Assembly (NCBI GenBank): GCA_022641775.1
Contig: JALCDS010000009.1
Coordinates: 1 to 64,000 of the forward strand
Source: Clostridiaceae bacterium
GTDB taxonomy: Bacteria; Cyanobacteriota; Vampirovibrionia; Gastranaerophilales; Gastranaerophilaceae
Direction of reading: 5' to 3'
DNA: 64,000 nt
Shown here piece by piece: positions 41,525-62,994 of the stretch. The notes under the pieces were generated by a model that worked only from the letters and a program-made list of their open reading frames with translations, was not told where the DNA came from and did no database searches. Made by a program: the position numbers and the translations under genes. Within the stretch, counting starts at the first letter, position 1. Each line of letters starts with the position of its first letter.

Positions 41525-41553
41525 AAATGCAACCGAAATTTTCGATTGCATTT
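41525..41553 (-). terminator. possible terminator hairpin downstream of GH13 operon
   Basis: AAATGCAATCGAAA ... TTTCGGTTGCATTT on minus strand (one T-G wobble); weak T-tract. Confidence 0.45.
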
Positions 41554-41576: not shown

Positions 41577-43295
41577 CTAATTATTTTGTTTATAAATATT
41601 TTTAAAATATTTTTCTACATCCGGTGTATAAATTTCAAACACATGTGCTCTTGCGGGCCCTAAATCAACATTCAATGCGTTATTTTCAGCCTGGATAATA
41701 CTTTCTTTGCCATAAGAAGGCAACAAGTTCTTTAACGGTTGATTTTTTTGTAATGATGGAACTTTTATTTTGGCAGCTACAGAACGATTTACATTTTTGT
41801 TAGCAACAACCAACAAGGTCTTTCCGTTATAATGTCTCAAATATGCAATAATCTGATCATTTTCATCCATTTCTTTGTCTAAAGGAATAAATGTGCCATG
41901 TTCTATTACATCTGCATATTTATCTCTCATGGTGAAACATTTTTTCATAAAATCACCGATTTCAGGATTGGAACCCTGAGGCTTCCTTGAAAGATTGAAT
42001 ATATCTAATTTACCTCTGTGAACATCCATAACGTTGTTATCAGTATCTGAAACATCCATAGTTTTACCTTCATAAGGATACATATAGTAGTCACCGGATT
42101 GATAACCATCTACAATATACGGATTCATCATTGGCAAAGTAGATTGCAATGCCATAGTCAAATTACAATAATCAACGCCCCCGTTAAACATTGGCGACAT
42201 ATCATCATGAGTTGCAAATGAACCTATATAAGATTTACCTTTTGGTAAATCATAAGAAGATTTCATATTTTCTTCCACATATTTATTAAAATCTTTTGCA
42301 CTGGTCCATTCATTGAAAATGTGGTATTGTCCATATGCTGCATCAAAACCTGCTCTCAATAAATCTGCCGGTCTATCATATGGCATATTTGCCTGAGGAG
42401 AAGCATCTTCATAAGTATAGGTTTCTGCAAGCCAGCCAAATTGAGGGTCAAGCTTTCTTGAATAAGGAATAATAATGTCCCAAAATTCTGTAGGTTTTGA
42501 CCTTGCAACATCAGCTCTTATACCATCAACACCTAAGTCAACGCACATTTTTACATATTGTTTATGTAAATCTACAAGTGCAGGATTAAGAGTTCTTTTA
42601 CCTTCATCTTGCCAAGGTTGAAACATTCTGATATCATTCCAGCCCTGAGGTGTCTTAGCTAGCCCGTCAGGGGCTTTAGCCATCAAATCAGGCTTAGCTA
42701 AAAACATATCATATGAGGCACAACTAGGTAAATCTAACAAAACTTTTATTCCACGTTTATGACATTCATCAATAAAAGCTTTGAACTGCTGTTTCGGAGT
42801 TCTTGAATCAGTAGGATCAACAAGGGTCGGATCTATTTCCAACAAATCTTTTGGTGAATATATAGAACCTGCCGTTCCCATTGCTTTCAATTTGCCAGGT
42901 TCGTGAATAGGCAACAGGTGGATAGTATTAAAGCCATCTCGTTTTACTTCATCCAGTCTTTTAATTGCATTCAAGAAGGTTCCGTGTTGCTCATTATCTT
43001 CAATATATTCATTATGATTCAAATCTCTGGCATTAAAGGTTCTCGGAACAATTGCCAATATTTTTGCTTGATTGTTTGCAAACATAGATTTTAAATTATT
43101 ATGATAATTTTTAAGATTACCGTTATCAATATTCACTTTTGCAGTATTAATAACAGATAAATTGTTCAAATATGATGCCAATAAGTTTGAATTTTCATTA
43201 ACAGCAGGCTTTAACTCTGTTTTTTGTTGAGGTAACTGCTGAATAGAATTATTTAAATTTGCCTTTTGAGGAGAAATTGTCGTTGTATTAATCAT
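41577..43295 (-). CDS. GH13 alpha-amylase-family protein, no signal peptide
   Basis: GVDGIRADVARSKP (nucleophile region), GWLAETY, FATHDDMSPMF; region I divergent (LLDLPSCASYD). Confidence 0.82.
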   Translation of the reverse strand: MINTTTISPQKANLNNSIQQLPQQKTELKPAVNENSNLLASYLNNLSVINTAKVNIDNGNLKNYHNNLKSMFANNQAKILAIVPRTFNARDLNHNEYIEDNEQHGTFLNAIKRLDEVKRDGFNTIHLLPIHEPGKLKAMGTAGSIYSPKDLLEIDPTLVDPTDSRTPKQQFKAFIDECHKRGIKVLLDLPSCASYDMFLAKPDLMAKAPDGLAKTPQGWNDIRMFQPWQDEGKRTLNPALVDLHKQYVKMCVDLGVDGIRADVARSKPTEFWDIIIPYSRKLDPQFGWLAETYTYEDASPQANMPYDRPADLLRAGFDAAYGQYHIFNEWTSAKDFNKYVEENMKSSYDLPKGKSYIGSFATHDDMSPMFNGGVDYCNLTMALQSTLPMMNPYIVDGYQSGDYYMYPYEGKTMDVSDTDNNVMDVHRGKLDIFNLSRKPQGSNPEIGDFMKKCFTMRDKYADVIEHGTFIPLDKEMDENDQIIAYLRHYNGKTLLVVANKNVNRSVAAKIKVPSLQKNQPLKNLLPSYGKESIIQAENNALNVDLGPARAHVFEIYTPDVEKYFKNIYKQNN

Positions 43296-45847
43296 TATTT
43301 TTTCTCCTTTCCTGTAGGATTTTGAATTTTTGCAGTTTTTTGTACAGGCATTTTACCAAAGAAAAATTGAGCCAAAACAGTTATACCTAACAGCCCTGCA
43401 CCAAATCCTGCAAACATTTTGAACCATTTGTTGCTATTGAAACGTTTTGAAGCTTGTTCATGAACTAATTCATCAAGAGGTTTGCCTATTAACATAAACT
43501 TTAATTTGTCAGGTATTTCAGCATTTGCACCACATTCAGGTTTAGCAAAATACAAAGCATCTGCGACTGTCTTAATCATATTATCTCTATATTCAGCAAT
43601 TGTTGTCATCAAATCACCTTTTTTAGCTAAAAGCCCAGCCGTTTCAGGATGTAAATCATCTTTATATATCAGAGAAATTACACGATTGAAGAAACTTGAA
43701 TCAAATTGGATATCACCTTTATCAACATTTTGTCCGTATTTTCTAAACAATCGTCCATTCTTAATTTCAATACTACTCTTATCTTCCATATTAGGATGTA
43801 AATTTCTATCAGTAATAAACTTAACAGCATAATCTGCAGAATGTCCATCTACCATAATTTTTCTTGCAAATTCTGCAATTTCTTCTTTAATTTCACGAGG
43901 CGTAGTATTATCTGTTAATAAGCCTACATTTTTCAAATCCGCAATACGTCTGTACAAATCCATTGTCGCAATAAGTCTGTTCATAGTAGATTGAACTGAT
44001 AAGGTTGTTTCACGCATAAATTTCTTTTGTAATTCTCGTGAACTTGAGCTTACAACTTCTTTTGTATCAACACCTATTTCATTACCATCAAGAGCTTTGT
44101 GTAAATGTTTAAAGCCAAAGCTATCAAATTCTTCAAGGAATTTGTCATACAATTTGTCAGATTTCTCATCATATGTTTTATCTAAATGCAATGTTGATGT
44201 AAATTTATCTTTTATCTCGATAATTTTTGTTAGTGCATCTTGATAAGATTTTGAATTCGCCGTTATACCTTCAATTTTCTTTGTAAATAACTCACCTGCG
44301 AACAATCTGTCTTTTTTCATTTTTTCAACTTCTTGTTTATTAAAGCCAAAAATATTAACAAGTTTTTCTACAGATTCATTCCAAGATGTAGCCAATACAG
44401 AATCCTGAGTCGGTGAGGTTTTCATAAATACATATTCATTCAAAACACTTCTCTCTGCATTAAAATCAGAAAGTTTTTTAGCAATTCTCCTGATATTTTC
44501 CTGTTCTTCAAGTGTAAGTATCTTAACCTTATTTTTCTTGAATAACTCTGTAAATACGTTGTTTGTATCTTCTGCATCATCCCACAATAAATCCTGCATA
44601 TCTTCAATATCTAAACGAATATGAGGATATTTAGCTTTACATTGTTCAAATTTTTCTAAAACCGGTTTTGAAAGCAAAATTTTCTTTGCCCTGATTTCCT
44701 TCTGAGTTGCGTTGAATGATGTTTCATATAAATTGTTAGATTTTAAGAAATCAATATATTCATCTTGCGTAGGTACAATGTCATTAATAAATTCAGGAGG
44801 TAAACCCTCTTTTAATCCGGGTATTTTTCTACCCTTGAAAAACTGTCTGAGATTTTTTGTCATATCTTGTGCCGCAGTTAAGCCCAAGGTAACCTCATTA
44901 CATTCAAACATTTTATTAAAATCTTTTTTGAATGCGATAACTTCTGAATTAAACATACCTGATGTTAATACATCAGAGAGCTTGCTTAACAATTTTGCAT
45001 CGAGTCTGCCATCTTTGTTTGCGGATATAACCTTTTCAAGATTTGCTAACATATCTTTATCCTGATATTTTGACGCATTACCTGCTATATCAGAAATCAG
45101 TCTGTCAGCTTTTTTATTTTTAACTTCTTCAAAATATTTATCCAATGGCTTTTCTGCAACATTACAAATCAACGCACTCATAATAGGAGTTGCAAAGCCT
45201 GCAGTTAGCATCCACATTGTATTATTTTGAACAGCTATTTTTTTCATTTTTTCTTGAATATATTCACGGCGATTTTTCATATCTGCCGGAATATTCATTC
45301 TATCACCGATTTTGTTGATATCTTTGTCTGAATACAAATCCCATTTGATATATTGCGGATCTTCAAAGAAAGGTTTTCTTCTACCAAAACTATCTTCTGA
45401 TTGTTGTTGAACGTTAAATCCATGAATCAAATAAGCGGGTAATTGCAATGCAACTTTAGGCCAAATTGCCATAGACGCTAAGAATGAACCCAAACCGATA
45501 AATTCCATAACTTTTGTTTTTGGAGTACTTTTCAATGTAGATAGATATCCTGCAATCCCAAGACCTCCGACAACAAGACCAATATCATTTATTTTTCCGA
45601 GTTGATGGTCATTTGCATCTCCCTTATAACTATCATGAACAGCTTTAGCATTATAGATAGTATTGTGTGCGAAATTTGCAGGCCAATCAAACAACCCACC
45701 ATTTACTAATCTTCCTTTTGGAGGTAACGGTTTTTTCAGAACACTATAGTCTGGAGTAGTATTTTCCAACGTAACTGCCGGCTGTTTTTTCAGAGTCGTA
45801 TTCGCCGGTACCGGATTTATGTAGTTTTGAACCAAATTCGTTGTCAT
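43295..45847 (-). CDS. 850-aa lineage-restricted membrane protein
   Basis: Hydrophobic N-term and C-term (WFKMFAGFGAGLLGITVLAQFFFG) flanking a long charged helical region; start 2 nt after upstream stop. Confidence 0.75.
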   Translation of the reverse strand: MTTNLVQNYINPVPANTTLKKQPAVTLENTTPDYSVLKKPLPPKGRLVNGGLFDWPANFAHNTIYNAKAVHDSYKGDANDHQLGKINDIGLVVGGLGIAGYLSTLKSTPKTKVMEFIGLGSFLASMAIWPKVALQLPAYLIHGFNVQQQSEDSFGRRKPFFEDPQYIKWDLYSDKDINKIGDRMNIPADMKNRREYIQEKMKKIAVQNNTMWMLTAGFATPIMSALICNVAEKPLDKYFEEVKNKKADRLISDIAGNASKYQDKDMLANLEKVISANKDGRLDAKLLSKLSDVLTSGMFNSEVIAFKKDFNKMFECNEVTLGLTAAQDMTKNLRQFFKGRKIPGLKEGLPPEFINDIVPTQDEYIDFLKSNNLYETSFNATQKEIRAKKILLSKPVLEKFEQCKAKYPHIRLDIEDMQDLLWDDAEDTNNVFTELFKKNKVKILTLEEQENIRRIAKKLSDFNAERSVLNEYVFMKTSPTQDSVLATSWNESVEKLVNIFGFNKQEVEKMKKDRLFAGELFTKKIEGITANSKSYQDALTKIIEIKDKFTSTLHLDKTYDEKSDKLYDKFLEEFDSFGFKHLHKALDGNEIGVDTKEVVSSSSRELQKKFMRETTLSVQSTMNRLIATMDLYRRIADLKNVGLLTDNTTPREIKEEIAEFARKIMVDGHSADYAVKFITDRNLHPNMEDKSSIEIKNGRLFRKYGQNVDKGDIQFDSSFFNRVISLIYKDDLHPETAGLLAKKGDLMTTIAEYRDNMIKTVADALYFAKPECGANAEIPDKLKFMLIGKPLDELVHEQASKRFNSNKWFKMFAGFGAGLLGITVLAQFFFGKMPVQKTAKIQNPTGKEKK

Positions 45848-45848
45848 A

Positions 45849-46871
45849 CTAATTTACCACATACTTATCTTCAGGTTTTATAACGTTTGATGCATCGATT
45901 TTAGAAGGTTTATCCAATCCGAAAACGGAATGCATAACCCCAAAACATGATGCGGCAATTGGAACTAACAATAACAATTTACCTGAATATTTGCCGAACT
46001 TACTTGTTGAAGGTCCTTCCCAAAATTCTTTACTTGCTTTTTTTATAGAATCCTTAAATATTTTGAATGTTTCATTTATATTGTCCCGATGGAAACAGCC
46101 TTTTTCACAAACACGTTTGAGAGCTCTATCCCATCCCTGTTGCATTGCAAAACCGACACCGGCAGCTGCCCAAAGATAAGATGTTATAGATTTTGCCATA
46201 GATGAACGGGCTATAATTTGTTTTACAAGCGGTTTTACTTCCTGATCGGAATCATTCAAATCAGTACCTAAACCGTTTTTCTTAGCAATCTTGTCATATT
46301 TTTCGTTACGTTTTTTACCCTTAGCTTCATCACCATACAGCATTGCCCAATAAGGAAAATCAACACTTTCAAACACCTTATGATATTCAATACTTGTAAT
46401 ATCGGTATCATTTACGTTTTCAGGCAACTTATAATTTACTTTTGCATAAGGAGTATTGCCATCAACACCGGTCAACCATTTTACCGGAGCATTAATAAAA
46501 CTCTTTGACAACGACTTCATTACGCCATATAAAATGACACCCAAAGCCATCCTTCTGCCTACTTTATTTGCTCTTTCCTTATCAAATACATTAAAGTGTT
46601 TATTTGCGGAATTAAACACTGACATTAAAGTTAAACTTCCTATTAAATATGGTACGGCACCCATAGTCAAAAACTCATAAAAATTAGAGTTTTTATCACC
46701 TTTCAGACCTTTTGCAGGATAAAGAGTAAACGCATTTGATAACTTGTCAAAACCTATACGAGTACGAGTAATAAGGTTATTTTTGAGTAGAGTATCTTTT
46801 GTGTATTTTTTATCACTGTCATTGTCGCCAGTGAATGCTTGACTATTAAAATTATTTACCGGTAAAATCAT
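45849..46871 (-). CDS. lineage-restricted membrane protein, first gene of operon
   Basis: GGAG supports start MILPVNNFNSQAFTGD at 46871 rather than 46886; several hydrophobic segments. Confidence 0.72.
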   Translation of the reverse strand: MILPVNNFNSQAFTGDNDSDKKYTKDTLLKNNLITRTRIGFDKLSNAFTLYPAKGLKGDKNSNFYEFLTMGAVPYLIGSLTLMSVFNSANKHFNVFDKERANKVGRRMALGVILYGVMKSLSKSFINAPVKWLTGVDGNTPYAKVNYKLPENVNDTDITSIEYHKVFESVDFPYWAMLYGDEAKGKKRNEKYDKIAKKNGLGTDLNDSDQEVKPLVKQIIARSSMAKSITSYLWAAAGVGFAMQQGWDRALKRVCEKGCFHRDNINETFKIFKDSIKKASKEFWEGPSTSKFGKYSGKLLLLVPIAASCFGVMHSVFGLDKPSKIDASNVIKPEDKYVVN

Positions 46872-46977
46872 TTTAACTCCGCACACATTTAACTAGAAAT
46901 ACAAGACCTGTAAACAATATTTTTTGTTACCCTATATAAATTTCATTTACATTTTTTTACAATAAAAAACGGCAATT

Positions 46978-47823
46978 TTACTTATATATTTCAAAAAATA
47001 CTGCGGTAAACAATCCTACAATTATGCAATAATAACCAAAAAATGCCAAAGAAAATTTGGAAACAAATTTCAAGAAATATTTTATACACAAATAACCTAC
47101 AATAGCAGAAACAATAGTTCCAACAATTATTGCAGACCAATTATAAGTAAGTGCCTCTGCAACATCAATCTTTATCAACGGGAATACCATTGAAGCCCCC
47201 AAAATTATCGGAATACTCAATAAAAACGAATATCTTGCTGCAGTAATTCTATCCAATCCTGAAAACAAACCTGTAGCAATTGTCCACCCGGAACGTGAAA
47301 AGCCCGGAAGAACTGCAATGCCTTGAGCAATACCAATTAATATTGAATTTTTTAAAGTCAATTCGCCTTTTTTATCACCCATCTTTTTATGTTGATATTC
47401 ACTCAAGAAAAGGATAATACCAGTTCCAACAAGCAACATCCCAACAATAGATGGTGAATATACAAGCTTTTCTGCAAAATCATTAAAAGGAAGCGCCAGT
47501 GCAATTGTTATAATAGTTCCAAAAATTATATATAATCCAAGCTTTGCTTCTGTATTTTCAAAATTTTTCTTCTTTATTGCATCAAATAATGCTTTACAAA
47601 TATCTAAAATATCTTTTCTAAAATAAATTATAACGGCAATTAGTGTGCCTAAGTGTAGCATAATATCAAAAAACACTTCTTGATTTGATTGTTTCGCAAT
47701 TGCGATATGTCTAAAAACTTTGAAAAAATTTGATGTAAAAACCAAATGTGCAGAACTTGAAACAGGTAAAAACTCGCTCAAACCTTGAACTATACCCATC
47801 AATATTGCTTGTATTAAATTCAT
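46978..47823 (-). CDS. uppP: undecaprenyl-diphosphate phosphatase
   Basis: GIVQGLSEFLPVSSSAHLVF; GIAQGIAVLPGFSRSGWTIATGLFSGLDR. Confidence 0.94.
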   Translation of the reverse strand: MNLIQAILMGIVQGLSEFLPVSSSAHLVFTSNFFKVFRHIAIAKQSNQEVFFDIMLHLGTLIAVIIYFRKDILDICKALFDAIKKKNFENTEAKLGLYIIFGTIITIALALPFNDFAEKLVYSPSIVGMLLVGTGIILFLSEYQHKKMGDKKGELTLKNSILIGIAQGIAVLPGFSRSGWTIATGLFSGLDRITAARYSFLLSIPIILGASMVFPLIKIDVAEALTYNWSAIIVGTIVSAIVGYLCIKYFLKFVSKFSLAFFGYYCIIVGLFTAVFFEIYK

Positions 47824-47873
47824 CTCAACTATCCCTTTTTACTGTTATAACCTGTAATTTTTCTATTTACCAA

Positions 47874-48236
47874 CTAATCTTCTTCGTAATAAGTTGCGCA
47901 AGAAGTCTGAGTTTCCCAAACAGAAACCTTGCTCAGCTGAACGACATGCTCTTTCATCTTGTTATAAATAAATCTTGCAATCATTTCGCTTGAAGGGCTT
48001 TCACCTTTAAATTCTTCAACTTCATTAATATCTTTATGATCTAAAAGCTCTAACACTTTGTGCAATTCTTTTTTCAAAACCTTGTAATCAATCAAAATAT
48101 TGCTTTTATCAAGTTCGGCACCTTTAACAAAAACTTCAACCATCCAATTATGACCATGTTGGTTTTCACATTCACCATCATAATTTAATAAATGATGTGC
48201 TGCTGAAAAAAATGCTTGTGTTTTAATTTCGTACAT
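47874..48236 (-). CDS. queD: 6-carboxytetrahydropterin synthase-like protein
   Basis: FSAAHHLLNYDGECENQHGHNWMVEVFV; DHKDINEV; ETQTSCATYY. Confidence 0.87.
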   Translation of the reverse strand: MYEIKTQAFFSAAHHLLNYDGECENQHGHNWMVEVFVKGAELDKSNILIDYKVLKKELHKVLELLDHKDINEVEEFKGESPSSEMIARFIYNKMKEHVVQLSKVSVWETQTSCATYYEED

Positions 48237-48255
48237 AAATTTGTTCCTTTACTTA

Positions 48256-48792
48256 TTACTTACTGCTTGTTTCTGAAACGATGTATTCTTTTTTTATACC
48301 TTGAGCTTCAAGGATAAAATCACAAAGTTCACGAACGGCACCACGACCACCGTCTTTTGTAGAGATAAAATCAGCTTTAGCCAAAACTTCATCTACAGCA
48401 TCTTTTGGACAACATGCCAGTCCGGCTTTTTCCAAAATACATATATCAGGTAAATCATCACCCATATATGATACATTTTCAAAAGTGCAATTATATTTTG
48501 CCATAATTTCTTCTAATGCCGGCAATTTATAAAGTCTACCTTGATAAATTTCTTTTATTTTAAGGTTTTCAGCTCTATGTTGAACTGTTCCGTTATGGCG
48601 GGCGGTAATAATTGCTGTTATAAACCCTGCATTATTCATTCTTACAATACCGTGACCATCTTTTACGTTGAAGGTTTTATATTCAACACCATTTTCATCA
48701 TAGGTTACGCCACCGGTTGTCATAACACCATCAACATCAAATGCCAAAATTTTAATTTTTTTTGCTTTTTCTATCAGTGCTTTTGAATACAT
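48256..48792 (-). CDS. kdsC: 3-deoxy-D-manno-octulosonate 8-phosphate phosphatase
   Basis: LAFDVDGVMTTGGVTYDENGVEYKTFNVKDGHGI; MGDDLPDI; DGGRGAVRELCDFIL. Confidence 0.93.
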   Translation of the reverse strand: MYSKALIEKAKKIKILAFDVDGVMTTGGVTYDENGVEYKTFNVKDGHGIVRMNNAGFITAIITARHNGTVQHRAENLKIKEIYQGRLYKLPALEEIMAKYNCTFENVSYMGDDLPDICILEKAGLACCPKDAVDEVLAKADFISTKDGGRGAVRELCDFILEAQGIKKEYIVSETSSK

Positions 48793-49766
48793 TATGCAAC
48801 CCCTGCCTTCAAAATATCATGAACATGTATAACTCCGATAGGTTTGTTAGCCTCATCTACAACACCCAATGCTGTGATTGAATATTTTTCCATAAGATTA
48901 AGCGCACTTGCACCATAATCATTGGCAGATATCTTTTTCGGATTAACAGTCATAACATCACGAACTTTCAAGCCGTTTATATCTTTGTATTTCAAAACAG
49001 TACGTCTGATATCACCATCTGTAAGAACTCCTGCAAGCTCTCCATTTGAATTTACAATCATTGCCATCCCAAGTTTGTGAGAAGAAATAACTTCAACAAC
49101 TTCTGTAAATAACATATCTTCTTTTGCAATAGGAAGTTTGTCAGCATCCGATAACATCAAATCACGAACCTTAAACCTAAAGCCTTTTCCCAACGCTCCG
49201 CCCGGATGAAAGATTAAAAAGTCTTCTTCGGTAAATCCACGCATTTTCAAAAGACAGACAGCCAAAGCATCTCCCATTGCAAGAGTTGCTGTTGTACTAG
49301 CTGTCGGAGCCTTATTCAAAGGACATGCTTCTCTTTCAACAGATATATCCAAAACGACATCAGAGGAAGTAGCAAGAGTAGATGACAAATTCCCAGTCAT
49401 ACCAATCATTGGAACACCAAATCGTTTTATCAATGGCAAAAGATTCAATAATTCCTGAGTTTCACCACTGTTTGAAATTGCAATAACTACATCTTCACGC
49501 GTTATTATTCCGCTATCACCGTGGGTACTTTCTGCAGGATGTAAAAAATATGACGGAGTACCTGTAGATGTCAGAGTTGAAGCTATTTTTCTTCCAATAT
49601 GTCCTGACTTTCCCATACCGGTCACAATAACACGACCTTTACAATCCAATATCAACTGTACAGCCTTATCAAAATTATCTCCGATATTTTCTTTTAATTT
49701 CAAAATTGAATTTGCTTCAATATCAAAAACTTGTTTTGCAAGTTCATTAATTTTACTCGTTGTCAT
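48792..49766 (-). CDS. kdsD: arabinose-5-phosphate isomerase, SIS + CBS
   Basis: VTGMGKSGHIGRKIASTLTSTGTPSYFLHPAESTHGDSGII; two CBS domains. Confidence 0.92.
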   Translation of the reverse strand: MTTSKINELAKQVFDIEANSILKLKENIGDNFDKAVQLILDCKGRVIVTGMGKSGHIGRKIASTLTSTGTPSYFLHPAESTHGDSGIITREDVVIAISNSGETQELLNLLPLIKRFGVPMIGMTGNLSSTLATSSDVVLDISVEREACPLNKAPTASTTATLAMGDALAVCLLKMRGFTEEDFLIFHPGGALGKGFRFKVRDLMLSDADKLPIAKEDMLFTEVVEVISSHKLGMAMIVNSNGELAGVLTDGDIRRTVLKYKDINGLKVRDVMTVNPKKISANDYGASALNLMEKYSITALGVVDEANKPIGVIHVHDILKAGVA

Positions 49767-49838
49767 ATAAGTTGCTTCCATTTTTTACCCCTTCATCTTG
49801 TCTCAAATTATACACTAAAAATATGTTTGACACACATT

Positions 49839-56395: not shown

Positions 56396-59300
56396 TTATT
56401 TTGAGGTTAATATCAATTTTGAACCGACATAATCAACTTTTTTATTATTATAAACATTATTATTCAATGAAATAAAATGATATTGAGGATTATACATAGT
56501 TTTCTTTGAGCCAAAGGCCGGTTGTGAAGCGTTAGGTTTTGCAGGCTTTGGTTCCAAATGATATAAATTTAATGTAGTATCAGAAATCGTAATAGGAACA
56601 GGTTTTTCAAAACTATCCAATTTTATCAAAACATATCCGGTATCATCAAAATATCTTACAACATATTTTGCATTTTCTTTATCAGCACTTCTGAAAACAG
56701 TACCATCAGGAAGCCCCGCACTAAGTCCGGCTTTAAAATCTTCACTTCCCTGACGTGCATCACCATACCCTCCAAGATATATCTTATCCACAGTTATAGG
56801 CGCTTTAGCAGGGTTGTAGTAATTTTCAGGACTAATTACACTACCATCATCATTTTTTATATTATTCAAATTCATTAAAGATACAGCCATATCACCATTT
56901 GGGCTTTGTCTTAATATTCCTGTAATTCCTGATTGTTGACGCAAAACATAAGGTGTACCATCATTTAAAGAATGCATTCTTGGATCATTTCTCAATCCCA
57001 TAATGTCATCAAATTCTTTATAATGTTTTGCTACAAATTCTTTATATTTATAAATATTCTTTTCATCTATCCATTCGTAATGGTTAGCATTTCGGTTTTG
57101 TTGATAAATATTTTTAGTCTTTTCTTCAAAACCTGAAGATGCCAAATCATCTCCGGAGAATAGCGTTGGAATCCCAGGCAAAGCTACTAAAACTTTCATC
57201 ATTCCCAAAAGTTTTGAAATTCCTCTATCCATAATAAATTCAAATGTTTGATTTTTTAAAGCCTTTTCATCATCTCTTGTTAATACAAGATTATGAGCAT
57301 ATTTTGCCTGATCAATTACCAATGGTATTGTTGCAGTAAAGTCTTTTACTCCAAAACCGTCAGCTTCAAAATAATGATCTTTATATTTTCCGTTTGTTAA
57401 ATCACATAAGGATTCTGCAATAGCGCTATAAACTTCAGAAGCTTTTTCGGGATTATTAGGATACATTGTTGCAATAGCATTTCCAAATCCACTGTTCAAT
57501 GCCCAACCCATAGCGCAAGCTTTTGGACTTGTATGGCTAAAATCTGTTGAATTTACTTCATTTATATCAACATTTCCGTCCATAAGTTTATTATGAGTAA
57601 GTTTATAAGCTTTTTCTCTTATTGCAGTATTAGAAGGATTGCTTAAATCGCCAAAGAACAAACTCATATCCATAGCCAAACAATGTAACATTCTTGGTTT
57701 ATCATGGTTACTTATAAAATTATACGAATACAATAATGATTCCAATTGCGCAGATTTCAAATACGGATTTGGAACATCATAAGATTCGTTATGCGTCAAT
57801 TTATCATAAATAGCATCTATTGATTTTTGTTTATCAAATGTTAATTCTCCATCTCTTTCTGTTGCAGGACCAAACATCTTGGCTATTGTTGAAAAGAAAT
57901 ATGAATAATTTGCAATTGTAGTCATTTCAGTTTTGTTCAAAAATTTAGGTACTATTTCATTTCTGTTATAACTTGAATTTTTACCATTTCCAATATTATA
58001 TAATGTATTTTCATCGGTAATTTCTGCCGCCATATATGCATTAGGATTTACTTTATGAATGTTTTTAGAAAAGTTCGCCCAAAAATCAGTGACTCCATTC
58101 CAAGTCTCATCAAAAGAAACTTCACCATTTCTCAACGCATCAATATCTGCCACATCTTTTGCAGCATCAATTCTCCAATCCAAACCGGCGCCGGTTTTAT
58201 CAACAATTAATCGGGCAAGTTCATAACTCTTTGGAGTTGTATCTTTTATACTCAAACGAATCGCTCTTGCGAGTTTGTCTTTATCAGATTGTCCAATATG
58301 TTTAATTCCTGATCTGATTTTTGTTGTCAAGTCAGCAACTTCATTTTCAACACTTATAGTATTTATACCCAAATCCTGCATATGAACATTTTTTAATTCA
58401 TCATATTTATATGACAGTTCACCTGTCTTACTATCATACCAATATTCCGCATTTGGAACCAAACTTTTGATAATGGCAAATTTTGCTATTTCTTTGGATA
58501 TAAGAGGTAAAACTTCTTGTCCTAAAGGTGTACAACCGTTCTTTTTATCATACAGTTGCATATTATTGCTCATTTCGCTATTAACCTTTGCCAAAATTTC
58601 TTTTGTAAAATCGCCAAGCTCATTTTCATATATTTTTTGAGTTTTTAAATATAAATCCTTATTGTCATCTTTCAGGTGAGGATTTCCCATTTCATACATT
58701 TCATATTTTGTCTTTCCTATTTGCTCCGGAGAAGATGCTCGTTTGCTCATAAAATGTGATGAAAATGCCGCAACAATATCATCACCCAGTTCCACAGTGT
58801 CAAGAGGGAAATTCATTATCGAACTCAATACCATCTCGTCATAATTCTTTTTAGAATTTATATGGTTACCAATATAGGTATCATCCATAACGTTTCTTAC
58901 CATATTTTCAGTTAATGAATCTCTTAATGAAAGTGGTAATTGAGGATTTGGTTTTCCATTTCGTCTTTCATTAACTTTATCCATAATAAGAGCATATGCT
59001 TCATCAGGTTTATTCGGATCAACACCTTTTAACTGTTGTGCAATATATGTAATTAAAGTATCACGTGTCTTTTCGCTCCAATATATACCTGAAGTTATTG
59101 CATAATCTTTTGCTTCACATGAATATCGATTATCAATAGCTTTTTTGTATGCACGTTCATTTTTAGGTACATTTAACATTTTCCAGTCATCTGCAGTAGA
59201 AGACATATATCGCAATTTCAAGATATCCGGGTTTGCATCCCAAGTATAAAAACCACTTTCAATATTTCTGTCTTCCAAGCTATAATTTTCAAATTGGGCA

Positions 59301-60607
59301 ATTAACCTGAGTGCATTATAACTATCAAGTTTAATTTTCTTATCTGCAGGTAATTCTTTATTAAGTTTGTTTATTTCATCTATATGTCTTTTTACAACAT
59401 TTTCGTCCACAACCATAAAACTGTTTGGAACAACAGTATCATTAGAGTTATTAACCTCTAATTTGTTTGGAAGACTCAATTTGTCATAAGATTGTATAAG
59501 CTTGTCTTCTTTAGTAAATTTATTTTTTACAAATCTCTTATCAAAAATTTGAATGTAAGTAGGTGCATATTTGTCATAATTACGACTCGCAGGACTATGT
59601 ATCTGACCTGTTTCGTCTTGATAATAATCATTTTTAGAATTTACGAATCTATAAGATATAACATCCTTTTTGGCACTAAAAACTCCGGGTTTTAATGGAG
59701 CCAAATCAAAACCTTCAACATTAAACCAATGGTAGAACGGTGAATCTTTTCCACGTTTCAAAACATCAGCAAAATGAATTCCCTCAATACCTTCATTTGT
59801 AAGTGCAGCATCAAAAACGAAGTTTTTATCTTTGATAAACATTTTTCTCATCAAAGATTGAAAATTATTAATATTCCCTAATGACAATGCCATCTGCATA
59901 TTATTCTTGGACCAATAGGCATGAGATGTTAAACTGTCATCAGTTCCTATTGGGGTTGAAATAATTCTTGAAAAGCTGTCGAACCTTCCATCATCCAAAT
60001 CACGTTCGATACCTGCTAAAGAACCGCCTATCTTGTTTGAAAACGTTTTGTTTGATTCTTGAACCTTAAGTAAAGCCACATTCCCGATTTTTTTGGGTTC
60101 ATTATCTCTGTCATAAACCCAAGCAGGATTGTATGAATCAGGGATAACCAACTTCATCGCGCCACCTTTTTTCAATCTCATATCATTTGGATACATAATA
60201 TTAAATTGATCATTTTCGCCCCCGTTTATGGCTTTGATTACCAAGCCGGCATCGGTTCTGTATGAAACATCTGACGGATTATTTTTACTAACAAGTTTAA
60301 ATCTGTACGCAAAAGGTTCATCTTTCTTTAGTCCGAAATGAGAGGTAATATTTACCTTGTTTGGTCCGTAATGAATCTGCAATGCATCTTTATCTGTAGA
60401 CAAGTCTTTTAACGGCTCATCTCCGGCTTTTGCATGTTTATCGTCATCTAATATTGCATCACGAAACTCAATATAACAATCATAATTTATGTCATCAAAA
60501 GGATAGAAAAATTTAAGTTCATTTTTCCCATCATCATTTTTCTGCTTGTAAAACCCTGTGAATCCGGTATTTTTTGAGGATATTTCAGAGTTCAGATTGA
60601 CCTTCAT
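56396..60607 (-). CDS. 1403-aa GH13 alpha-amylase-like protein, no signal peptide
   Basis: GLDWRIDAAKDVADI, NAYMAAEITDENTLY, FISNHDKPRML, LVALPGIPTLFSGDDLAS; AAGGAG upstream of ATG. Confidence 0.82.
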   Translation of the reverse strand: MKVNLNSEISSKNTGFTGFYKQKNDDGKNELKFFYPFDDINYDCYIEFRDAILDDDKHAKAGDEPLKDLSTDKDALQIHYGPNKVNITSHFGLKKDEPFAYRFKLVSKNNPSDVSYRTDAGLVIKAINGGENDQFNIMYPNDMRLKKGGAMKLVIPDSYNPAWVYDRDNEPKKIGNVALLKVQESNKTFSNKIGGSLAGIERDLDDGRFDSFSRIISTPIGTDDSLTSHAYWSKNNMQMALSLGNINNFQSLMRKMFIKDKNFVFDAALTNEGIEGIHFADVLKRGKDSPFYHWFNVEGFDLAPLKPGVFSAKKDVISYRFVNSKNDYYQDETGQIHSPASRNYDKYAPTYIQIFDKRFVKNKFTKEDKLIQSYDKLSLPNKLEVNNSNDTVVPNSFMVVDENVVKRHIDEINKLNKELPADKKIKLDSYNALRLIAQFENYSLEDRNIESGFYTWDANPDILKLRYMSSTADDWKMLNVPKNERAYKKAIDNRYSCEAKDYAITSGIYWSEKTRDTLITYIAQQLKGVDPNKPDEAYALIMDKVNERRNGKPNPQLPLSLRDSLTENMVRNVMDDTYIGNHINSKKNYDEMVLSSIMNFPLDTVELGDDIVAAFSSHFMSKRASSPEQIGKTKYEMYEMGNPHLKDDNKDLYLKTQKIYENELGDFTKEILAKVNSEMSNNMQLYDKKNGCTPLGQEVLPLISKEIAKFAIIKSLVPNAEYWYDSKTGELSYKYDELKNVHMQDLGINTISVENEVADLTTKIRSGIKHIGQSDKDKLARAIRLSIKDTTPKSYELARLIVDKTGAGLDWRIDAAKDVADIDALRNGEVSFDETWNGVTDFWANFSKNIHKVNPNAYMAAEITDENTLYNIGNGKNSSYNRNEIVPKFLNKTEMTTIANYSYFFSTIAKMFGPATERDGELTFDKQKSIDAIYDKLTHNESYDVPNPYLKSAQLESLLYSYNFISNHDKPRMLHCLAMDMSLFFGDLSNPSNTAIREKAYKLTHNKLMDGNVDINEVNSTDFSHTSPKACAMGWALNSGFGNAIATMYPNNPEKASEVYSAIAESLCDLTNGKYKDHYFEADGFGVKDFTATIPLVIDQAKYAHNLVLTRDDEKALKNQTFEFIMDRGISKLLGMMKVLVALPGIPTLFSGDDLASSGFEEKTKNIYQQNRNANHYEWIDEKNIYKYKEFVAKHYKEFDDIMGLRNDPRMHSLNDGTPYVLRQQSGITGILRQSPNGDMAVSLMNLNNIKNDDGSVISPENYYNPAKAPITVDKIYLGGYGDARQGSEDFKAGLSAGLPDGTVFRSADKENAKYVVRYFDDTGYVLIKLDSFEKPVPITISDTTLNLYHLEPKPAKPNASQPAFGSKKTMYNPQYHFISLNNNVYNNKKVDYVGSKLILTSK

Positions 60608-62214: not shown

Positions 62215-62994
62215 TTGTTTTCATTTGGGTTTAACATTATAAATACAAGTCCTACACCATTATCAATGATGAACAATATGATGATGCTTAACAATTCAGC
62301 GAGTACATTTTCTCCACACGAATTTGAACTCAACGTATTGCAAGCCCCATCAATGAATATGAGTTTCCCAGGTAGCTTATTCAATACTGTAGATTTTAAC
62401 AATCCTTCTACAGCTCCTTTACCGGCAAGCAACTTTAGTTGTGTAAACTATCCACTTCCAATGATGCCTATGATGCCGATGTCTAATTTTGCATATATGC
62501 AAATGCCAAATGTATTTAGCATGTTCTCAAATATGGGTTCAATGTTTTCAAATTTATTCAACTTCAATTATAACAGTTTCAATACAAAATCAAATTTGCC
62601 TCAATTAAAAAATATTAATTACAATGCATCAAAAGGTGAAAGTTTGGCACAAAATGTAGCATCTTCAGTTGAAAAAGGTTCTACAGGATGGTGTGCTAAG
62701 TATGTAAAAAATGCTATTGCAAAAGCAGGCTTAGGAAATAAAACAGATGGCAATGCTTATCAATGTGCAGCAAAACTTGCAAACAACCCTAATTTTAAAG
62801 AAGTTAATGTTACAGGAAATGATTTAAAAAATCTTCCTGCAGGATGCGTAATTGTTTACAACAGAGGAGCCGCAGGCTACAGTTCTAAATACGGACATAT
62901 TGAAATATCATTAGGCAATGGCACTGCAGCAAGTGATTTTCTTAACAAAAATATAAAAGCATCAAATGATGTCAGAGTATTCGTTCCGGTTTAA
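62215..62994 (+). CDS. Met/Asn-rich protein with C-terminal CHAP/NlpC-like domain
   Basis: GWCAKYVKNAIAKAG (Cys), KYGHIEISLGNG (His); N-terminal half Met-rich; AAGGGG before TTG start. Confidence 0.7.
   Translation: MFSFGFNIINTSPTPLSMMNNMMMLNNSASTFSPHEFELNVLQAPSMNMSFPGSLFNTVDFNNPSTAPLPASNFSCVNYPLPMMPMMPMSNFAYMQMPNVFSMFSNMGSMFSNLFNFNYNSFNTKSNLPQLKNINYNASKGESLAQNVASSVEKGSTGWCAKYVKNAIAKAGLGNKTDGNAYQCAAKLANNPNFKEVNVTGNDLKNLPAGCVIVYNRGAAGYSSKYGHIEISLGNGTAASDFLNKNIKASNDVRVFVPV

Follow-up and report, generated by a model that had tools for sequence, protein, structure and literature searches.

A conserved gene cluster couples two unannotated predicted membrane proteins to a divergent GH13 enzyme in Gastranaerophilales and related bacteria

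Here, we describe a three-gene cluster in the assembly of a Clostridiaceae bacterium (GCA_022641775.1; Gastranaerophilaceae in GTDB, in Candidatus Gastranaerophilales, an order of non-photosynthetic relatives of Cyanobacteria; 1.7 Mb, 94% complete), located within the first 64,000 nucleotides of contig JALCDS010000009.1, hereafter the window. Genes A and B encode predicted membrane proteins, and gene C encodes an enzyme of glycoside hydrolase family 13 (GH13; Table 1). Based on comparative sequence analysis, we consider it reasonably probable that A and B form an inner-membrane scaffold in which B holds C at the cytoplasmic face for α-1,4-glucan remodelling. An initial annotation of the window had proposed that the membrane proteins may anchor or organise a cytoplasmic GH13 enzyme, and our data support this view, with B-C gene fusions providing direct evidence for anchoring. 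C itself is a member of a known family; we found nothing corresponding to the membrane pair or to its seemingly obligate coupling to the enzyme. The earlier suggestion of an undescribed system therefore holds, as neither A nor B resembles a characterised system in Pfam, NCBIfam, PADLOC, PHROGs, the Protein Data Bank (PDB) or Foldseek searches.

To determine how tightly the three genes are linked, we surveyed 59 genomes (the window's own and relatives) with each protein separately. A and B each occur in the same 47 genomes, and an orthologue of C, told apart from a secreted paralogue (C'), in 46. All three genes are present in 45 genomes and none in 11, and the three mismatches coincide with contig ends: the G006 and G031 contigs break off directly after B, and C stands alone in G051, whose genome is 66% complete. 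The secreted paralogue is retained where A-B-C has been lost, as in four of the 11 genomes without the cluster, which belong to the window's own family. The order A-B-C is kept in 43 of 44 contiguous cases, the exception being one C-A-B arrangement (L132); in G039, the end of the B-C contig puts A on a separate one. In the GTDB genome collection, 304 pattern matches encode relatives of B, and the best 80 of these show the order A-B-C in 79, with A off the contig in the remaining one.

The gene junctions are similarly constrained. In the window, A and B are separated by a single nucleotide and the stop codon of B overlaps the start of C by one (TAATG), so that the annotated picture of three minus-strand genes with 1–2 nt junctions corresponds to a 1-nt gap and a 1-nt overlap, with all open reading frames (ORFs) in place. 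Among the 79 GTDB loci, the A-B gap was 1, 0, −4, −1 or 2 nt in 78 (+1 nt in 48), and the B-C gap ranged from −8 to +6 nt in 77 (−8 or −4 nt in 41). The conserved order and these near-fixed junctions rule out chance packing. Neighbourhood conservation across related genomes was thereby borne out, with the flanks varying more than the cluster. We also looked for homologues of the membrane genes without the GH13 gene, and found none across the 59 relatives, the GTDB loci and the distant families described below. In a phylum-wide draw of 292 genomes, all matches fell within the same class. A and B are single-copy in the window's own genome. Both are also present in a contig labelled uncultured Brachyspira (L209, ONYB01000132.1; 34% identity to the window's B), which is probably a misnamed Gastranaerophilales bin.

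B was further detected in two other families of the class, f9 and f15, where it is only 477–625 aa long and is again preceded by A and followed by C, mostly with 4-nt overlaps. In three f9 genera, B and C form a single ORF uninterrupted by a stop codon, in which the GH13 part begins some tens of residues past the last hydrophobic helix of B. In a tree of 38 GH13 parts, the A-B-linked C proteins form one clade apart from the secreted paralogues (support 100/100), and the fusions also form one clade (100/98), indicating a single origin of the fusion. Fused genes strongly suggest that their products act together, and the B-C fusion argues that the enzyme sits on B; anchoring of the GH13 enzyme by B is thus a well-supported prediction. 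Since the separate C has no route for Sec export, the GH13 part of the fusions is most simply placed in the cytoplasm as well. One f9 genome (G081) carries two copies of the system (L227 and L228); in one of them B and C are fused, in the other they are separate.

We next examined the membrane pair. Family-averaged hydropathy identified four hydrophobic segments in A (aa 68–86, 108–126, 225–243 and 299–317), in line with the annotated 340-aa membrane protein, and four in B (aa 86–104, 116–134, 210–228 and 812–830). The description of B as an 850-aa protein with hydrophobic ends and a long charged middle was likewise accurate, with three segments at the N-terminus, one at the C-terminus and a charged stretch of 583 residues between them. 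A and B share the same segment plan, in which two close segments are followed by a 75–98-residue loop, a third segment, an insertion of 55 residues in A and of 583 in B, and finally a fourth segment near the C-terminus. An hhalign profile comparison aligned A with residues 38–238 of B (probability 97.6, E 3.7e-12). Among the distant families, A is likewise picked up directly by the B profile. This homology and the matching segment positions identify A and B as a duplicated (paralogous) pair, in which B has gained the long helical insertion.

Neither protein contains a recognised domain, consistent with the initial annotation: A and B had no match in Pfam, NCBIfam, PADLOC or PHROGs, A had no PDB sequence match below 0.1, and Foldseek searches of the PDB with AlphaFold models of both (pLDDT 82.6 for A and 83.6 for B) returned nothing at E ≤ 0.001. 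Clear homology to a characterised system was thus sought and not found for either protein. The PDB sequence matches of B (designed helical proteins and others, best E 1.7e-4) were put down to coiled-coil composition, and Foldseek hits to a transporter or pyrophosphatase (best E 0.014, TM-scores near 0.1) were discarded as meaningless. Conserved residues, such as PWDLY in B and NFYEFL and ESVDFPRWDLLY in A, do not appear catalytic. A defence function was rejected, as PADLOC gave only a weak GlgB-like match for C (1.3e-5) and none for A or B, and so was a phage origin, there being no PHROG match and no relative in viral contigs.

GH13 enzymes act on α-glucans via a conserved Asp/Glu/Asp set, and the annotated signatures GIRADVA (D262), LAETY (E291) and THDD (D364) are indeed present in C. 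The three residues are invariant in 118 C proteins, three fused proteins and six secreted paralogues; nine distant separate C proteins all keep D262 and E291, and D364 aligns in eight of them. Pfam matches were marginal both for PF14701 (hDGE_amylase; 30.2 bits, cut-off 27, 3e-7) and for PF00128 (Alpha-amylase; 22.8 bits, cut-off 22, 7e-5), and these weak scores mark C as a divergent GH13 protein by sequence. We also confirmed that C lacks a signal peptide: the maximum 15-residue hydropathy within the N-terminal 60 residues averages 0.64 over the 118 C proteins versus 1.96–2.41 in the six secreted paralogues. This hallmark of secreted amylase systems is therefore absent from C and present in the paralogue, which is nearly universal in the family (L233:8276-9829 on contig 1 of the window's own genome).

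Comparison with solved structures suggests a reaction for C. A single-sequence PDB search returned Thermotoga maritima maltosyltransferase as the best match (1gju/1gjw, E 2.6e-16), and the family profile ranked 4gkl first (E 2e-26), followed by 1gju, 3dhu and then GlgE (E 2.7e-15). C shares with the T. maritima enzyme the PRT...GTF stretch, the G-x-R-x-D and (L/I)AE regions and the absence of Asn-His from region I, and the two align nearly gap-free from the PRT motif through region I; the T. maritima enzyme differs in having a longer insertion and in ranking second to 4gkl by family profile. To our knowledge, it has no membrane partner. The nearly gap-free alignment favours C as a transferase without amounting to proof, and a glucan or maltosyl transferase appears more likely than a bulk digestive amylase. 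Maltosyl transfer between malto-oligosaccharides may be the specific reaction, as suggested by sequence resemblance to the T. maritima type.

The catalytic regions of GlgE (α-maltose-1-phosphate maltosyltransferase, GH13_3) align with those of C as well (RVDNPHTKPVAFW...FLAEAFT versus RADVARAKPVEFW...FLAETYT), but the match is weaker, C is shorter (~570 aa versus ~660–700) and the residue after the nucleophile is Val rather than the Asn of the V-D-N motif. An NCBIfam scan of C reported no GlgE equivalog, which together with this Val excludes GlgE proper. We know of no comparable partner proteins in GlgE systems. The α-amylases 4gkl and 3dhu have the same barrel core as C, but both keep Asn-His at region I, and neither record mentions a membrane partner.

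Together, these observations lead us to propose that the paralogues A and B assemble as an inner-membrane scaffold, and that the C-terminal end of B binds C in a stable complex or, in some genera, runs on into the GH13 part. C would sit at the cytoplasmic face and remodel α-1,4-glucan chains (glycogen or malto-oligosaccharide) at the membrane surface rather than free in the cytoplasm, probably by the ordinary GH13 retaining mechanism with D262 as nucleophile and E291 as acid/base; a second GH13 protein, D, possibly joins it in glucan rearrangement. These cells would then probably perform part of their sugar-polymer chemistry on the membrane, raising the question of why they need α-glucan chemistry there. 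Bacterial glycogen enzymes are usually treated as soluble. In passages of a 2024 review of prokaryotic α-glucan enzymes, the words membrane-bound, membrane-anchored and inner membrane are absent (PMC11046441). Through co-loss, overlap and fusion, the cluster links two unannotated families with a catalytic enzyme in a class of Cyanobacteria relatives from the gut and the environment, and gives these dark families a testable function.

Several observations weigh against the proposed scaffold. The hydrophobicity of the segments is moderate (family mean Kyte-Doolittle 1.0–1.7) and charge bias, tried twice, gives no clear topology, so that A and B might instead be monotopic. Their AlphaFold models lack a solved counterpart, nothing independent favours a scaffold over a transporter, and the B-C fusion is known from three genera only. 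In C, region I reads D-x-P-S-C-A-S, keeping the Asp and lacking the usual Asn-His; the D-x-x-x-N-H form is common in GH13 and not universal, and the activity of C could be unusual.

The alternative that survives best, which we nonetheless regard as unlikely, is that A and B transport oligosaccharides or another solute, as a transporter or channel to which C belongs as a coupled enzyme or an ancillary subunit. A heteromeric pore could be built from two paralogous four-segment proteins, and GH13-like domains serve transporters elsewhere: in the heavy chains rBAT and 4F2hc (SLC3) of heteromeric amino acid transporters, described as fake or orphan glucosidases, a GH13-type domain is physically coupled to a membrane protein (PMC8537225). 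These chains are extracellular and partner SLC7 transporters (PMC8537225), whereas C is signal-less and retains the full catalytic triad, unlike a degenerate ancillary chain. Moreover, A and B show no similarity to any transporter family in Pfam or the PDB, their helices are few, and nearly 600 residues of B lie outside the hydrophobic segments.

It is less probable still that C acts on a cell-envelope or lipid-linked glycan, with the membrane pair presenting a lipid-linked substrate. This idea draws on the partly envelope-related genes upstream of A in the window's clade, kdsD, kdsC, a QueD-like gene and uppP, each found in 66–78 of 127 loci (uppP in 77). However, ~40% of loci and the distant families lack these genes, and the neighbour that recurs across families is instead the GH13 protein D, with a GT5-type synthase in two genomes. 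We consider it very unlikely that B inserts a periplasmic GH13 domain across the membrane for the degradation of imported dietary starch or maltodextrin: gut bacteria use starch, and B's last segment, being basic on its N-side, could adopt an N-in/C-out orientation, but C is separate in over 100 genomes, has no signal peptide or hydrophobic segment, and the family possesses a different, signal-bearing GH13 paralogue for export. Finally, loosely related genes are often grouped in bacterial operons, but an operon of convenience, in which three unrelated genes are co-transcribed without physical interaction, is scarcely credible given the strict co-loss in 59 genomes, conservation across families with differing flanks, translational overlaps and B-C fusion.

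We return to the proposed scaffold of A and B and to its α-glucan context. D lies ~10 kb from A-B-C in the window, where its barrel is split by a ~500-residue insertion and it has no Pfam match at all. Phmmer links it to GH13 α-amylase and cyclic maltosyl-maltose hydrolase (E 3–5e-8), and all 20 aligned copies retain its motif residues D814, E862 and D969 (copies span 879–1493 aa, the shortest cut by contig ends). D is directly downstream of A-B-C on the same strand in 11 loci, and in one Gastranaerophilales locus and seven f9 loci it lies divergently upstream of A; because it adjoins the cluster in many relatives, it is a probable partner enzyme.

A GT5-type glycosyltransferase adjoins A-B-C in two f9 genomes. 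GT5-type proteins of 880–1094 aa (L247:4063-6708, L251:5575-8859 and L225:2435-5380) are much longer than the canonical glycogen synthase GlgA of the window's own genome (483 aa, L249:5533-6984). This genome also encodes GlgC (named by eye from sequence) and a short α-glucan phosphorylase; with the Pfam alpha-amylase model only C was found, and no canonical GH13 branching enzyme was detected, a GH57 branching enzyme not having been searched for. Passages of papers on these bacteria attribute to them a potential for glycogen storage or use and do not describe the A-B-C genes (PMC5877343, PMC4040986, PMC3787301).

At their N-termini, A, D, the long GT5-like proteins and some C proteins (for example at window positions 46871 and 60607, in L251 and in L262:4546-6273) carry, ahead of the folded part, a disordered leader that contains a short F-x-G/A motif (FTG, FSA, SFKG, FSGYR). 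In A, F13 does not vary across 70 sequences, and nearly all D proteins retain the motif. As a genome-wide signal the leader was rejected, the enrichment being weak in 292 own-genome ORFs with a loose pattern (4.8% vs 3.0%). We tentatively raise a dedicated membrane platform for α-glucan biogenesis, in which A and B hold C, and D and the giant GT5-like protein, sharing the leader of A, are recruited there. Such a platform, if real, would parallel in bacteria the membrane-directed initiation of starch in chloroplasts, where the thylakoid-anchored plant protein MFP1 decides where α-glucan enzymes work (PMC10801857). MFP1 is membrane-anchored and largely helical, and its likeness to the proposed A-B-C arrangement is one of function, by analogy only; it is eukaryotic, has one membrane helix and a coiled coil, and carries no enzyme (PMC10801857).

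Table 1 Features of the A-B-C cluster, gene D and the B-C fusions. Positions refer to the window or, for the fusions, to the named locus
Feature	Position	Strand	Details
Gene A, 340-aa hydrophobic protein	45849..46871	-	ATG at 46871; 4 predicted membrane segments
Gene B, 850 aa	43295..45847	-	3 N-terminal and 1 C-terminal hydrophobic segments; ~580-aa mostly helical charged middle
Gene C, 572-aa signal-less GH13	41577..43295	-	Resembles maltosyltransferases/α-amylases
GH13 catalytic core of C	42204..42512	-	D262 nucleophile (42510-42512), E291 acid/base (42423-42425), D364 third Asp (42204-42206)
B segment 4 (aa 812–830), last hydrophobic helix	43358..43414	-	Hydropathy profile
Terminator-like hairpin between C and panD	41525..41553	-	13-bp stem, 3-nt loop
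Gene D, 1403-aa divergent GH13 with large barrel insertion	56396..60607	-	Homologues adjoin A-B-C in 19 related loci
B-C fusion, L227	9229-12189		986 aa
B-C fusion, L230	9000-12248		1082 aa
B-C fusion, L231	9820-12912		1030 aa

For A, the listed ATG was preferred over an upstream GTG at 46886 because the MILPV start is conserved. The hairpin 3' of C lies in an AT-rich tract (minimum free energy −18.5 kcal/mol for an 86-nt region, z −4.46), and its position after C and before panD suggests that the A-B-C transcription unit probably ends there; panD is downstream of the cluster in 43 of 127 loci. A promoter scan gave fewer sites than in shuffles. In the window, the uppP, QueD-like, kdsC and kdsD genes precede A at 46978-49781 (minus strand), a block stable in this clade only. 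Further along, an ORF at 62215-62994 (plus strand) combines a low-complexity Met/Asn/Pro-rich N-terminal half with a C-terminal part that appears CHAP/NlpC-like by eye.
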